Source: an uncultured Alphaproteobacteria bacterium (GTDB lineage Bacteria > Pseudomonadota > Alphaproteobacteria > Micropepsales > Micropepsaceae). From it: a stretch of DNA of 64,000 bases. The notes beneath the pieces were generated by a model. It worked only from the letters and a program-made list of their open reading frames with translations. It did not search any database and had not been told where the DNA came from. The DNA lies in assembly GCA_903897605.1 (NCBI GenBank), contig CAIUCH010000051.1, forward strand, positions 1 through 64,000, read 5' to 3'. Shown here one piece after another: positions 556 to 4,773 of this stretch. Positions within the stretch are counted from its first letter, which is position 1, and each line of letters opens with the position of its first letter. Position numbers and translations under genes: made by a program.

Positions 556-960
556 TTAGAAGTTGAACGAGATGCGACCGCAATAATAGCCGCCATTCGG
601 ATTCCAGGCGGTGCCGAAGGAATTGCTGTTCACATTGCCGTTGCCGTCGGGAATGGCGACGCCGGTGGCAGCATTGTTGCCATTGAGTGCCGTGACCAAC
701 GAGGTGAGAACACCGATCTAGGAGAAGGGCTGAATATCCGGACGGATATCGAAGACGTTGTTGGCGCCCAACGAGAGCTGGAGCTGCTCGGTGACGTTAT
801 AGCGAAGCTCCATGTCGGTAAGGCCCACCCCCGCCTGATTGAACGGAATGACTTGGCCGCTATTGTTGGGCGCGGTGTGGGTGCCGATGAACAGCGAACG
901 CCGACACTGAGGCGCCGACCAGCAAGGAGTTTCTCAGATTGAGAACGTAGTTTATCCGCT
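556..960 (-). pseudogene. TonB-dependent receptor, decayed C-terminal remnant
   Basis: Read on the minus strand, the last 54 codons end in GGYYCGRISFNF and a stop. A TonB-dependent receptor typically ends in such an aromatic beta-strand. Upstream in the same frame are a TAG stop at 718-720 and receptor-like text (LTDMELRYNVTEQLQLSLGA, NVFDIRPDIQPF). Near position 900 the similarity shifts to another frame (RINYVLNLRNSLLVGASV). The sequence above about 960 no longer looks coding. An intact receptor has roughly 700-1000 residues, so most of the gene is missing and the rest carries a stop and a frameshift. It is non-functional unless the window sequence contains errors. Confidence 0.7.
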
Positions 961-1323: not shown

Positions 1324-1797
1324 TCAGTTGGCTTTCTTGACCGCGATGAATTCGATTTCCACCAGATTGTCCGGTCCGGCGAGGGCGGCAACCTGGAAGG
1401 CGGCACGGGCCGGCTTGTTGGGTTGCCCCACCGTGCCGAATTCCTTGAACCAGGAAGAATTCATCCCGGCGAAATCCATCTTGCCGCCCTTGGCGGGATC
1501 ACCGACCAGGAAGACATGCGCCTGCACGACATCGCCGAATGTCAGACCCAGCTTGGCCAGCTGCGCCTTCAGACTGTCCAAGGTGGCGGCGGTCTGGGCG
1601 GCCATGTCGGCACCCTTCGCGGCAGAGCCGCTGATGTAATAGGTGTCATAGCCGGCCGGCACATGCACCGAGCTGGCATATGGCGCCTTGGCGTTTTCCT
1701 GATTGTGCTGAACCATCATGTCGGCTGCGTAGGCGCCCGAGACGAAGAGCGCCGCGCCCATCACCGCGAAAGATCCATATTTCACAAACTTGTTCAT
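1324..1797 (-). CDS. Exported RidA-family protein (imine/enamine deaminase-like)
   Basis: The 157-residue protein begins with a Sec signal peptide (about residues 1-24, ending GAYA-AD) followed by one YjgF/RidA domain. The catalytic arginine region PARAAFQVAAL (Arg about 131) and the acidic VEIEFIAV strand (Glu about 147-149) are present. Family members hydrolyse reactive imines and enamines to carbonyls and ammonia and are usually cytosolic. The signal peptide here implies periplasmic action. It is the last gene of an operon, 25 bases after a cytochrome c gene that follows a flavin amine oxidase, and a strong terminator follows. Its inferred job is to hydrolyse the imine released by that oxidase. 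The biochemical activity is inferred, while the domain and signal are visible. Confidence 0.85.
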   Translation of the reverse strand: MNKFVKYGSFAVMGAALFVSGAYAADMMVQHNQENAKAPYASSVHVPAGYDTYYISGSAAKGADMAAQTAATLDSLKAQLAKLGLTFGDVVQAHVFLVGDPAKGGKMDFAGMNSSWFKEFGTVGQPNKPARAAFQVAALAGPDNLVEIEFIAVKKAN

Positions 1798-1822
1798 TGC
1801 TCATTCCTCCTTGAAAGGTGGG

Positions 1823-2224
1823 TTACGGACGTGCCGCCTTGACGTCGGCGGGGGTTACCTTGTCCTTGTAGTTGTTGCCGAAATGCGTACGGGTATAGTT
1901 GACCACATCGGCAACCTGCTGGTCGGAGAACATTCCGCCAAACGCCGGCATCGCCTTCTGACCATTGACGATCACCGCGACCGGATAGCCTGCCGTTTCC
2001 AACTTGGGATTCTTGGCAAGCGCGGGATACATCCCTGCCCCCACCGCGCCTTTGGCATCGGGCATGTGACAGCCCTGGCAGACATTCTTGAAAATCGCCT
2101 CGCCACCCTGTTCGGTGAAACCGAAGCGCCCGCCACCGGCGCCCTGGGCATAAGCGCCCGATGACAAGCATAGTCCCAGCAGCAACGCGGAACCAAAAAC
2201 GCGACCGACAAATACTGACTTCAT
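1823..2224 (-). CDS. Small exported class I cytochrome c
   Basis: The 133-residue protein has a Sec signal peptide (about 1-26, ending GAYA-QG), a haem-binding CQGCH motif at 49-53 and a likely axial methionine in AMPAFGGMF (about residue 92). These mark a single-haem periplasmic electron carrier. The start was placed at the ATG preceded by a GGAGGGG ribosome site; a longer frame reaching to 2464 is only antisense of the oxidase gene. It lies 19 bases after the flavin amine oxidase and 25 bases before the exported RidA. The likely role is electron acceptor for the oxidase, as cognate cytochromes are for nicotine dehydrogenases of the same flavin family; that pairing is inferred from gene order. 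Confidence 0.88.
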   Translation of the reverse strand: MKSVFVGRVFGSALLLGLCLSSGAYAQGAGGGRFGFTEQGGEAIFKNVCQGCHMPDAKGAVGAGMYPALAKNPKLETAGYPVAVIVNGQKAMPAFGGMFSDQQVADVVNYTRTHFGNNYKDKVTPADVKAARP

Positions 2225-2243
2225 TATCCCCTCCAGATTTTGT

Positions 2244-3842
2244 TCAAGCCGCCACGGCACGTTGATGCAGACGCTTGATCGCGTCCAGTGCCGACACGAT
2301 AGCACCTTCCTGCCAAGCGCCCAGATGCGACGCATGTTCGCCGGCCAGGACCATGCGGCCATCGATCGCGCACAGCGCGTTGTAATTCTTTTCGCGATTG
2401 GCTTCAGTCCATTGCGCGAAACAGCCCAGTGTAAAGGGCATGCGATGCCAGCCGACCGAGACACCGTTCTCGAACTCCGTTCGGTATTGCGGATGGATTG
2501 CCGCGCCGCAATCGACCACCACCTTCATGCGCTCTTCCGGGCTCAACGAGGTGAGTTCAAACGCATGCGGGCCGAAGGTGTAGGCGCCGAGCACCACGCC
2601 CTTCTGGGTTTGCATGAATTGCGTCGAAGGATAGGAAATCAGCGCCACCGGCTGGTCGGTATAGGTGATGCCGCCATAGATGCGTTCATCGTCTTCCCAC
2701 CAGCGGCGTTTCATCTGCACGCCCGCCTTGAACCCGGCGCTGTAGGACAGCGAGTTGATCGCGTTCTTCAGCGGTGCACCGATCTGCATCGGCACCTGGC
2801 TGAGAATGGTGGTGGGAATGGTGTTGACGCACCAGTTGGCGGTGGCGGTCTGCGGCGCGCCCCCCTTCTGCGAATCCACATAGGAGACCACGACGCCGTT
2901 GGCGTCCTGCTTAATCTCCGTCACCTTGCAATTATACTTGATCATGTCCGGCGGCAGCGCCCGCACGAAACCGGCGCTGATGCGGTCCATGCCGCCGACC
3001 GGCTGAAACATGGTCATTTGATATTCATATTCGTGGCCGGTGAGCAGTCCGGTCCACAACCGCGACTGCAGCAGCTCGGCCATCGCCATCGGTTCGGAAT
3101 CGGTGGGCTGCCAGCTCAGTCCGCCGCCCGGATCGACGTCATAGCCGCGATGATTGGAAACCTGTCCGCTCTTTTTATATTCGTAATTTTGATTCAACGC
3201 GCCCCAGGCCCGCAGCGCCTGCAACAGCACTTCGGCATCTTCTTTGGTGACTGCCTGGTCGAGCTTGCCTTGTGAGGTGCATTTCGCCAGCAATTCCGAG
3301 ACATAGCCGCGGAAATCTGTTTCCACTTCGCGATAGCGTTTGGGTTTGCCACCGAACGCCTTGGAATTATGGATCATCGCGTTGTAGTTGATGATCGAGA
3401 AGGGTTCGAGCGGCACGTTCAGGCGCTTGCAATAGTCCAGCAGCGCGATGTGATGATAGGGAATGCGCATCGGGCCCGGATTGACATAGAATCCGGGATC
3501 GAACTGACAATGCTGGGTGAAGCCGCCCAATTCGTTGACCGTGTCGCCGCCGCGGATCGAGATGTTTCGGCCACCGGCCTTGTGCTGATATTCCAGCACC
3601 TGAACCTTGTAACCGGCGTTGCGCAGTTCCAGCGCCGCCGTCAGGCCGGCCAGACCGGCGCCCAGCACCAGGACCGATGCCCCCTTGGGATCGCCTTCCA
3701 GCTTGAGCGGGGCCGAATAGCCGGACTCCCCCGCATAGCCCAGATCGGTCATCGCCTGGTACATCGCGGCGCTGCCGGCAGCCATGCCGATCATGCGGAA
3801 TAGAGAGCGCCGGTTCATCGGCGCCAGAACTTGCTCAGTCAT
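2244..3842 (-). CDS. Tat-exported flavin monoamine oxidase / amine dehydrogenase family protein
   Basis: The protein has 532 residues. A twin-arginine motif (NRRSLFRM, Arg 11-12) and a hydrophobic stretch indicate Tat export of a folded FAD enzyme. A dinucleotide-binding fold follows (GAGLAG, about 61-66, with the acidic end VLEY). A GGRN flavin motif follows, and the C-terminal flavin-binding segment contains VLAGEHASHLGAWQEGA, typical of the amine oxidase family. Members oxidise amines or amino acids to imines. It is the first gene of an operon with a cytochrome c and an exported RidA, so it may pass electrons to the cytochrome rather than to oxygen. The substrate is unknown. About 200 bases upstream are free of genes and should hold the promoter. 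Confidence 0.87.
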   Translation of the reverse strand: MTEQVLAPMNRRSLFRMIGMAAGSAAMYQAMTDLGYAGESGYSAPLKLEGDPKGASVLVLGAGLAGLTAALELRNAGYKVQVLEYQHKAGGRNISIRGGDTVNELGGFTQHCQFDPGFYVNPGPMRIPYHHIALLDYCKRLNVPLEPFSIINYNAMIHNSKAFGGKPKRYREVETDFRGYVSELLAKCTSQGKLDQAVTKEDAEVLLQALRAWGALNQNYEYKKSGQVSNHRGYDVDPGGGLSWQPTDSEPMAMAELLQSRLWTGLLTGHEYEYQMTMFQPVGGMDRISAGFVRALPPDMIKYNCKVTEIKQDANGVVVSYVDSQKGGAPQTATANWCVNTIPTTILSQVPMQIGAPLKNAINSLSYSAGFKAGVQMKRRWWEDDERIYGGITYTDQPVALISYPSTQFMQTQKGVVLGAYTFGPHAFELTSLSPEERMKVVVDCGAAIHPQYRTEFENGVSVGWHRMPFTLGCFAQWTEANREKNYNALCAIDGRMVLAGEHASHLGAWQEGAIVSALDAIKRLHQRAVAA

Positions 3843-4049: not shown

Positions 4050-4667
4050 CTAGGACAGAAAAGCCTCGATCCTGTCAGCGGCACGCACCAAGTCGGCAAG
4101 CGACGGCGTTCCCATTTTGTGCATGACCTGGGCACGGTGAATCTTGACGGTGACTTCGCTCAACCCAACCAGGGCCGCGATCTGTTTGTTGATCTGGCCG
4201 GTGACAACCAGCTTCATGATTTCGCGCTCGCGTTTGGTGAGCGTGCGATAACCGCTCAGCAGGCCCGAGACCTGCTCCTCGATGTCGCGCTGGGTCTGAT
4301 CGCGGCGCAAGGCCGCCTGTACGCACTCCAGCAATTCCTGTTCGCGGAACGGCTTCTGCAGAAAATCCACGGCCCCTGCCTTCATCACCTGTACCGCCAT
4401 GGGAACATCGCCATAGCCGGAGATGAAAATGATGGGAATGCGGTCCTTTTGCGCCACCAGCCGCTTCTGCAGCTCGAGCCCACTGGTGCCGGGGAGCCGC
4501 ACATCCAGGACCAGACAGCCGCACGCCTCTGGATCGCGGCGGGCGAGAAATTCCTCGGCGGACGGGAAGGATTCGACCAGATGGCCGACAGAGAGGAGCA
4601 GGTCCCGGATGGCGCCGCGGACCGTGGCGTCATCGTCGATCAAATATACGATAGGAGTGTTGCGCAT
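4050..4667 (-). CDS. FixJ/LuxR-type two-component response regulator (orphan)
   Basis: The protein has 205 residues. The receiver domain shows the acidic triad (DDD at 11-13), the phosphorylation site Asp 55 (VLDVRLPG), the Ser switch in FISGYGD and Lys 105 in LQKPF. A LuxR-type helix-turn-helix follows (LTKREREIMKLVVTG to about 190). The ATG at 4667 was preferred over an upstream frame start because a GGGGGGAG ribosome site precedes it. No histidine kinase is encoded nearby. It lies upstream of the amine-oxidase operon on the same strand with a gap of about 200 bases, so control of that operon is possible but unproven. An inverted repeat 22 bases before its start suggests regulation of its own gene. 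Confidence 0.88.
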   Translation of the reverse strand: MRNTPIVYLIDDDATVRGAIRDLLLSVGHLVESFPSAEEFLARRDPEACGCLVLDVRLPGTSGLELQKRLVAQKDRIPIIFISGYGDVPMAVQVMKAGAVDFLQKPFREQELLECVQAALRRDQTQRDIEEQVSGLLSGYRTLTKREREIMKLVVTGQINKQIAALVGLSEVTVKIHRAQVMHKMGTPSLADLVRAADRIEAFLS

Positions 4668-4688
4668 CCTCGCTCCCCCCGGAAGCGA

Positions 4689-4712
4689 GTAATACCTTTG
4701 TTTAAGTATTAC
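4689..4712. promoter_or_regulatory. Inverted repeat upstream of the response regulator, possible operator
   Basis: GTAATAC (4689-4695) and GTATTAC (4706-4712) are perfect 7-base inverted arms separated by 10 bases, about one helical turn apart. This spacing suits a dimeric helix-turn-helix protein. The site lies just upstream of the regulator's ribosome site. Binding is inferred only from the symmetry. Confidence 0.35.
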
Positions 4713-4773
4713 CGAAAGTCCAGTCTTAACAGTGTCCACTTTGTGGGCAGGGGGCTCATTTTTCAGTCATATA

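Follow-up and report, generated by a model that had tools for sequence, protein, structure and literature searches.

A conserved alphaproteobacterial operon encoding a putative periplasmic, cytochrome c-linked L-amino acid dehydrogenase and its candidate imine hydrolase

Gene content and export signals at the locus

Three closely spaced genes on the minus strand lie near one end of the window, the 64,000-nucleotide stretch of DNA from an uncultured alphaproteobacterium analysed here. In the order of transcription they encode a flavin amine oxidoreductase, a cytochrome c, and a protein of the RidA family. The operon and its flanks contain the following features.

4050-4739, minus strand: LuxR/FixJ-like response regulator upstream of the operon, probable start near 4667
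3842-2244, minus strand: flavin amine oxidoreductase, 532 aa (Pfam Amino_oxidase, 2.5e-51)
about 3732-3842, minus strand: Tat-like signal of the flavoenzyme (eye and home-made script)
2225-2243, minus strand: 19-nt spacer between the flavoenzyme and cytochrome genes
2224-1823, minus strand: cytochrome c with a Sec-like signal, 133 aa (Pfam Cytochrome_CBB3, 1.4e-13)
2066-2080, minus strand: CQGCH, the sole heme site of the cytochrome
1798-1822, minus strand: 25-nt spacer between the cytochrome and RidA genes
1797-1324, minus strand: RidA-family protein with a Sec-like signal, 157 aa (Ribonuc_L-PSP, PF01042, 1.1e-16)
1308-1272, minus strand: intrinsic-terminator-like stem of 16 pairs followed by a T-run, 3' of RidA at the operon end (consensus scan)
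559-946, minus strand: remnant of a TonB-dependent receptor downstream of the operon

These coordinates, together with the 16-pair stem and its T-run, bear out the original prediction of a three-gene operon with spacers of 19 and 25 bases and a terminator. The consensus scan gave 8 terminator-like sites in 5 kb (shuffle mean 4.4), and the stem at 1308-1272 is among the two longest. None of the three operon proteins reached an NCBIfam curated cut-off among the matches listed. The surroundings were compared with those of four near MAG relatives, whose flavoenzymes are 90-92% identical to that of the window. A LuxR/FixJ-like regulator lies upstream in all four, and all three operon genes are present in three; the contig of the fourth stops 286 nt beyond the flavoenzyme. 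An intact TonB-dependent receptor takes the place of the remnant in three near relatives. Because the trio is kept in three of the four near relatives and recurs in other genomes, it is not a chance arrangement but a real, conserved operon.

Each N-terminus resembles an export signal, as judged by eye and then with a home-made script: the flavoenzyme begins with the Tat-like NRRSLFRMIGMAAGSAAMYQAM, the cytochrome with the Sec-like MKSVFVGRVFGSALLLGLCLSSGAYA-Q, and RidA with the Sec-like MNKFVKYGSFAVMGAALFVSGAYA-A. This reading agrees with the earlier proposal that each protein has its own predicted signal (Tat, Sec, and Sec, respectively). When the Tat test (hydrophobicity and the RR pair) was extended to 77 flavoenzymes, 72 passed; RR was not found in L103 and in the first copy of L129. 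By eye, the Tat region of the flavoenzymes at two further loci, L172 and L173, carries charges, and both still passed the hydrophobicity test of the script (1.55 and 1.56).

Affiliation and gene neighborhood of the flavoenzyme

The best match of the flavoenzyme among solved structures was the L-amino acid oxidase (LAAO) 2jae (1.2e-88, residues 50-529), which we take to be the Rhodococcus opacus enzyme. The next-best matches were reconstructed tetrapod LAAOs, near 1e-37, and only weak matches were obtained to MAO entries and to 5ttj (4.7e-5), presumably NicA2. With 4.7e-5 against 1.2e-88, the NicA2-type framing of the original prediction finds no support, and NicA2-type kinship with its amine specificity was rejected as an assignment. 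In the alignment with 2jae, Arg126 falls on chain position 83 and Tyr421 on position 370, which we take to be the carboxylate-binding Arg84 and Tyr371 of that enzyme; no paper on this role of the two residues was found in the open-licence literature. Residue counts and a tree were based on 75 of the 77 flavoenzymes, with two short sequences left out. The Arg126 column holds Arg in 75/75, and the Tyr421 column holds Tyr in 67, Phe in 7, and Asp in 1. Trp510 is kept in 74 of the 75 and faces a gap in the remaining one; Lys372, also kept in 74, is of no discriminating value. Because the Arg126/Tyr421 pair is kept and is aligned with the LAAO pair, the substrate is likely an L-alpha-amino acid, which gives a probable class to a substrate that the original prediction had called unknown. 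Individual gene neighborhoods fit such a substrate: an amino acid permease and a LysE-type translocator flank one flavoenzyme copy elsewhere in the window's genome, and M20 peptidases lie near other family members.

The partners of the flavoenzyme were recorded in two even surveys; the partner counts leave out the window's own genome, and close relatives are those scoring at least 400 bits. Flavoenzyme matches occurred in 15 of 289 genomes of the class (at most 5 candidates scored per genome) and in 19 of 398 genomes of the phylum (at most 3 per genome). A cytochrome c gene adjoins the flavoenzyme in all 23 close relatives. The enzyme itself is uncommon, but the cytochrome accompanies it where it is found. 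Sixteen of the 23 combine the adjacent cytochrome with a same-strand Rid gene no more than 3.5 kb away, and a nearby Rid is missing in the other seven. Among ten relatives below 400 bits, a cytochrome was present in three and a Rid in three. A scan of named genomes with the flavoenzyme yielded only four close and two distant loci. One cytochrome label, at L169, is probably false (1247 nt off, no profile match).

Closer to the window, 7 of 40 other genomes of the same genus had flavoenzyme matches. The 11 further loci from this genus comprise eight with the cytochrome only, one with both partners, and two with neither, both of the latter interrupted by contig ends; RidA is missing nearby in eight of the nine with intact surroundings. 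The window's own genome has seven flavoenzyme copies, one in a full trio, two with the cytochrome only, and four with neither partner (one of these sits 445 nt from a contig end). Plasmid records were also examined, 17 in all (13 of 70 flavoenzyme matches and 4 of 23 RidA matches). Six of the 13 flavoenzyme records contain all three genes in unchanged order (two Microvirga, Comamonas, Sulfitobacter, Paracoccus, and Ketogulonicigenium). The other seven contain the flavoenzyme-cytochrome pair with no RidA in the 3-kb flanks (Mesorhizobium, two Rhizobium, Paraburkholderia, Dinoroseobacter, and two Deinococcus); in Dinoroseobacter the pair adjoins cytochrome oxidase genes. The co-occurrence proposed as a check on the original prediction was therefore found for the cytochrome (23/23) and only in part for RidA, which is missing in 7/23 close relatives and near 6/7 own-genome copies.

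Pairwise protein distances within 28 trios (leaving out L169 and the three near-copies L026-L028) gave a correlation of 0.894 for flavoenzyme and cytochrome, with 0/5000 permutations as high. The corresponding values were 0.354 for flavoenzyme and RidA (11/5000) and 0.267 for cytochrome and RidA (80/5000). Since shared species history inflates all three correlations, the contrast among them carries more weight than their values, and it marks the cytochrome as the tight partner and RidA as the looser one. On the flavoenzyme tree of 75 sequences, the trio label is scattered yet clustered, requiring 16 changes against a shuffle mean of 24.6 (0/500 shuffles as low), the pattern to be expected if the trio is old and RidA has been lost or gained repeatedly.

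The RidA-family protein and its predicted export

The nearest solved relatives of the window RidA are PFL1385 (2.2e-22) and PSPTO3006 (2.9e-20). Both (PFL_1385 and PSPTO_3006; PDB 9bkc and 9bka) are Rid3 proteins that hydrolyse LAAO-made imines, according to the available excerpts of PMC5619798. The supposition that a ridA mutant in the cytosol is beyond rescue by Rid3 proteins was rejected, as rescue is independent of subfamily in the same excerpts. Arg131 of the window protein is the equivalent of RidA Arg105; it aligns with the corresponding Arg of 1qu9 and 1j7h, and its column is invariant in 15/15 aligned Rid proteins. In the part of PMC4433059 available, this Arg is tied to imine hydrolysis, and the replacement of the RidA active-site Tyr by Ile is given as a marker of Rid3. 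At the position where alignment A1 has Ile almost throughout, the window RidA has Tyr40 and its near relatives have Phe; this column presumably corresponds to RidA Tyr17. The protein is called Rid3-like here, not Rid3, because it has Tyr40 instead of Ile. It also lacks a loop of about 14 residues that is usual in its branch.

Predicted export is common in the branch. A home-made heuristic assigned a signal-like N-terminus to 37 of the 39 Rid ORFs of the branch (a set that includes the window and three near-copies), and 7/39 have a lipobox. A comparable test flagged 71/553 background ORFs, a comparison not strictly like for like because the start-Met rules differ (a Rid ORF could start at any Met until just beyond the domain start, a background ORF at any Met among its first 25 residues). 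By this script, the signal prediction that the original prediction had proposed for RidA location speaks for export. Seven further Rid ORFs came from a profile search, and five of them pass the signal test. The two that fail are at L172 and L173, where no cytochrome was found; the two loci form one clade and thus count as one event. The pattern there is what a joint relocation of RidA and flavoenzyme would look like. Within the matches listed for the open-licence literature, neither a paper on an exported bacterial RidA nor a survey in which the trio's RidA is itself shown to be exported, at times as a lipoprotein, was found.

The association of this RidA with the flavoenzyme was assessed from both a single sequence and a profile. 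The window RidA alone, searched against the 289 genomes, gave nine matches outside its own genome, eight of them within 3.5 kb of a family flavoenzyme (one on the opposite strand). Profile A1 placed 23 of 28 matches within 3.5 kb of a same-strand flavoenzyme (at most 9 candidates scored per genome), a count biased by the construction of A1 mostly from flavoenzyme-adjacent Rids, so that the single-sequence search is the fairer one. A different association occurs in Proteus mirabilis (L058), where a signal-bearing RidA of the same branch begins 40 nt after an L-amino acid deaminase gene whose product matches PDB 5fjm (1.6e-288). As in the window, an exported-looking RidA adjoins an amino acid-oxidising flavoenzyme; the Proteus locus has a different flavoenzyme, next to which the stretch examined shows no cytochrome c gene. 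We take the deaminase to belong to a different flavoprotein family, which makes this pairing independent support.

Proposed pathway and known systems

The gene content, order, and spacing, the export-like N-termini, the LAAO-type residues, and the conservation of the module are observed; cellular location, substrate class, electron acceptor, and the role of RidA are inferred from them. Taken together, these points make it probable (roughly 0.7) that the three genes specify an L-amino acid dehydrogenase that works in the periplasm and is linked to cytochrome c, together with an imine hydrolase of its own. In this scheme, the Tat-exported flavoenzyme would convert an L-alpha-amino acid to the imino acid, and electrons from the reduced FAD would pass to the exported cytochrome c and on to a terminal oxidase. 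The exported RidA would keep reactive imine from accumulating by hydrolysing the imino acid, with a 2-keto acid and ammonia as the products. Much of the periplasmic pathway originally predicted survives in this form: the cytochrome accompanies the flavoenzyme in 23/23 close relatives, 37/39 Rid ORFs of the branch are signal-like, and the Arg is kept in 15/15. The NicA2-type framing does not survive. The frequent absence of RidA and the four of seven own-genome copies with no cytochrome count against this reading, as do the low distance correlations of RidA with its partners (0.354 and 0.267), the oxidase name of the nearest solved enzyme, the heuristic nature of the signal calls, and the departures of the window RidA from its branch at Tyr40 and in the missing loop.

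Those four copies would suit another reading, in which the flavoenzyme is an oxygen-using periplasmic L-amino acid oxidase. The cytochrome c would then clear peroxide or work for a different enzyme, with hydrolysis of the imino acid left to RidA as before. The nearest solved relative, 2jae, bears the name oxidase, 7/10 low-scoring relatives also have no adjacent cytochrome (a Tat motif is kept in most of these copies and relatives), and Tat enzymes of that kind are mostly oxygen-using according to excerpts of PMC12224317. We nevertheless judge oxygen use unlikely, since every close relative has the adjacent cytochrome, the distances of the two proteins are correlated at 0.894, and Tat plus an adjacent cytochrome predicts dehydrogenases in those same excerpts, though for NicA2-related clades.

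Doubt may fall instead on RidA, which could be a loosely attached passenger or have some other periplasmic role beside a working unit of flavoenzyme and cytochrome. It is missing near many such pairs, its distances correlate with those of the flavoenzyme at only 0.354, and stand-alone exported copies exist, for example C34 in the window's genome and G147 (L110). The proximity of 8/9 other-genome matches to a family flavoenzyme, the exported RidA that follows the Proteus deaminase, and the hydrolysis of LAAO-made imines by Rid3 relatives (PMC5619798, in excerpt) make a passenger rather improbable. The layout of a Tat flavoenzyme with a Sec cytochrome c is shared with NicA2/CycN in the available part of PMC12224317 and could point to a NicA2-like dehydrogenase that acts on an amine or alkaloid. 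That assignment is highly improbable for a sequence far nearer to LAAO than to 5ttj, with retention of the Arg/Tyr pair that matches the substrate-binding pair of LAAO and with amino acid transporters or peptidases beside some relatives.

If the cytochrome-linked dehydrogenase works as proposed, many Proteobacteria would carry out amino acid respiration in the periplasm itself, sparing it damage from peroxide or imines. The little-studied Rid3-like proteins would acquire a place and a partner, and cytochrome c-using flavin dehydrogenases would extend into the LAAO branch, whose enzymes are named oxidases. A broader proposition, on which we see the odds as even, is that the entire Rid branch around Rid3 has evolved into imine hydrolases, either periplasmic or lipoproteins, that are devoted to respiratory L-amino acid dehydrogenases. 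The trio would then represent widespread, energy-conserving amino acid burning outside the inner membrane, with RidA export gained and lost along with that of its partner.

The closest known counterpart is the lao-cccA-ridA cluster (GDI2456-GDI2455-GDI2454) of Gluconacetobacter diazotrophicus PAL5, published in 2016 (PMC5053998). The available excerpts of that paper describe a Tat LAAO, a cytochrome c, and a RidA in one cluster; the authors compared the LAAO with the R. opacus enzyme and reported that Caulobacter and Xanthomonas conserve the arrangement. When lao is disrupted by insertions, no auxin is formed from tryptophan, the amino acid implicated in this relative, and transcripts of lao, cccA, and ridA drop together in a lao insertion mutant; ccm mutants, as cited there, keep 5% of the auxin. 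The auxin phenotypes of the lao and ccm mutants speak for the pathway proposed here. The authors put forward electron transfer to the cytochrome as a possibility and imine hydrolysis as the task of RidA. Likened by description, the window trio shares the LAAO, cytochrome c, and RidA operon and the Tat signal on the LAAO; in these excerpts the LAAO is the only one of the three proteins said to have an export signal. The published G. diazotrophicus primer was absent from 200 genomes of the G643 family (acetic acid bacteria by guess) and, with up to two mismatches allowed, from five genomes of the G643 genus.

Two further systems share parts of this design. In Chlamydomonas reinhardtii, a periplasmic LAO1 has an LAO2/RIDA partner (PMC10805672, in excerpt), so that extracellular L-amino acid oxidation is likewise combined with a RidA partner; this system differs in being eukaryotic and in the hydrogen peroxide produced by LAO1, and the excerpts mention no cytochrome c partner. 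NicA2/Pnao and CycN resemble the window in the Tat flavoenzyme and adjacent Sec cytochrome c, a combination that predicts cytochrome-using dehydrogenases in NicA2-related clades and that the window flavoenzyme also has; Tat flavoenzymes lacking the cytochrome are mostly oxygen-using there (PMC12224317, available in part). They differ in belonging to another branch of the superfamily, and neither "RidA" nor "L-amino acid" appears in that text. The Rid3 proteins PFL_1385 and PSPTO_3006 were studied in purified form and in a ridA mutant, and neither "periplasm" nor "signal" appears in the text of PMC5619798.

In view of the accounts in PMC5053998, PMC10805672, and PMC12224317, as far as their excerpts go, the original statement that an exported RidA coupled to a flavin enzyme is not a described system fails. 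By analogy, the window trio is a further example of the three-gene set known from a plant-associated bacterium and is not a new system. It also has a bearing on indole-3-pyruvate and auxin production by such bacteria. The conserved export predicted for RidA, along with how widely the module occurs, represents a modest step beyond the excerpts of these papers.

Genes flanking the operon

Two features adjoin the three-gene operon in the window:
4050-4739, minus strand (same direction as the operon, upstream of it): FixJ/LuxR-type response regulator
559-946: remnant of a TonB-dependent receptor, matching the receptor of a near relative in part

The response regulator is also found upstream of the operon in all four near relatives (metagenome-assembled contigs), and the operon may be under its control. 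Of the relative's receptor, the remnant matches only residues 1-27 and 840-933, which abut one another, indicating that the receptor gene has been mostly lost from the window. The receptor is intact at the same place in the near-copies L026, L027, and L028. By raw count over the fetched stretches, relatives of the L026 TonB-dependent receptor are encoded at 19 of 74 loci (L017, L096, L098, L107, L112, L123, L129, L135-L138, L168, L170, L172-L174, and L026-L028), and in some of these the receptor gene lies between the module genes or adjoins them. The receptor is a possible uptake partner of the module.

Flavoenzyme paralogs and a second RidA

Seven Tat-type paralogs of the window flavoenzyme were identified within its own genome, G000 (2.8 Mb), whereas among 40 further genomes sampled from the same genus, seven contain one to three copies. 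The G000 copies are located on contigs C51 (the window), C50 (L016), C56 (L017), C32 (L019), C55 (L020, two copies), and C57 (L021), those outside the window having 55-60% identity to the window copy; on C55, the two copies are clustered with two cytochromes c. G000 also encodes a second RidA (L025:6529-7185, on C34), 62% identical to that of the window. This gene is solitary, adjoining an OsmC-like gene, and the N terminus of its product appears signal-like when judged by eye. The second RidA could serve the flavoenzyme paralogs that lack one.

Possibly altered modules and RidA outside the trio

L172 and L173 contain flavoenzyme-Rid pairs in which the Rid lacks a signal and charges, judged by eye, occur within the Tat region of the flavoenzyme; no cytochrome was found around either pair. 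Both proteins may have returned to the cytosol together. On Komagataeibacter xylinus plasmid pGX5 (L057:3794-4477), RidA and a cytochrome c fragment are located 3' of integrase and IstB-type genes, no flavoenzyme was found in the fetched stretch, and the locus is probably a decayed trio. A further gene pair, for which no description was found in the open-licence literature, occurs in Proteus mirabilis (L058:2542-4501), where an L-amino acid deaminase gene is followed by a signal-bearing RidA gene starting 40 nt on.
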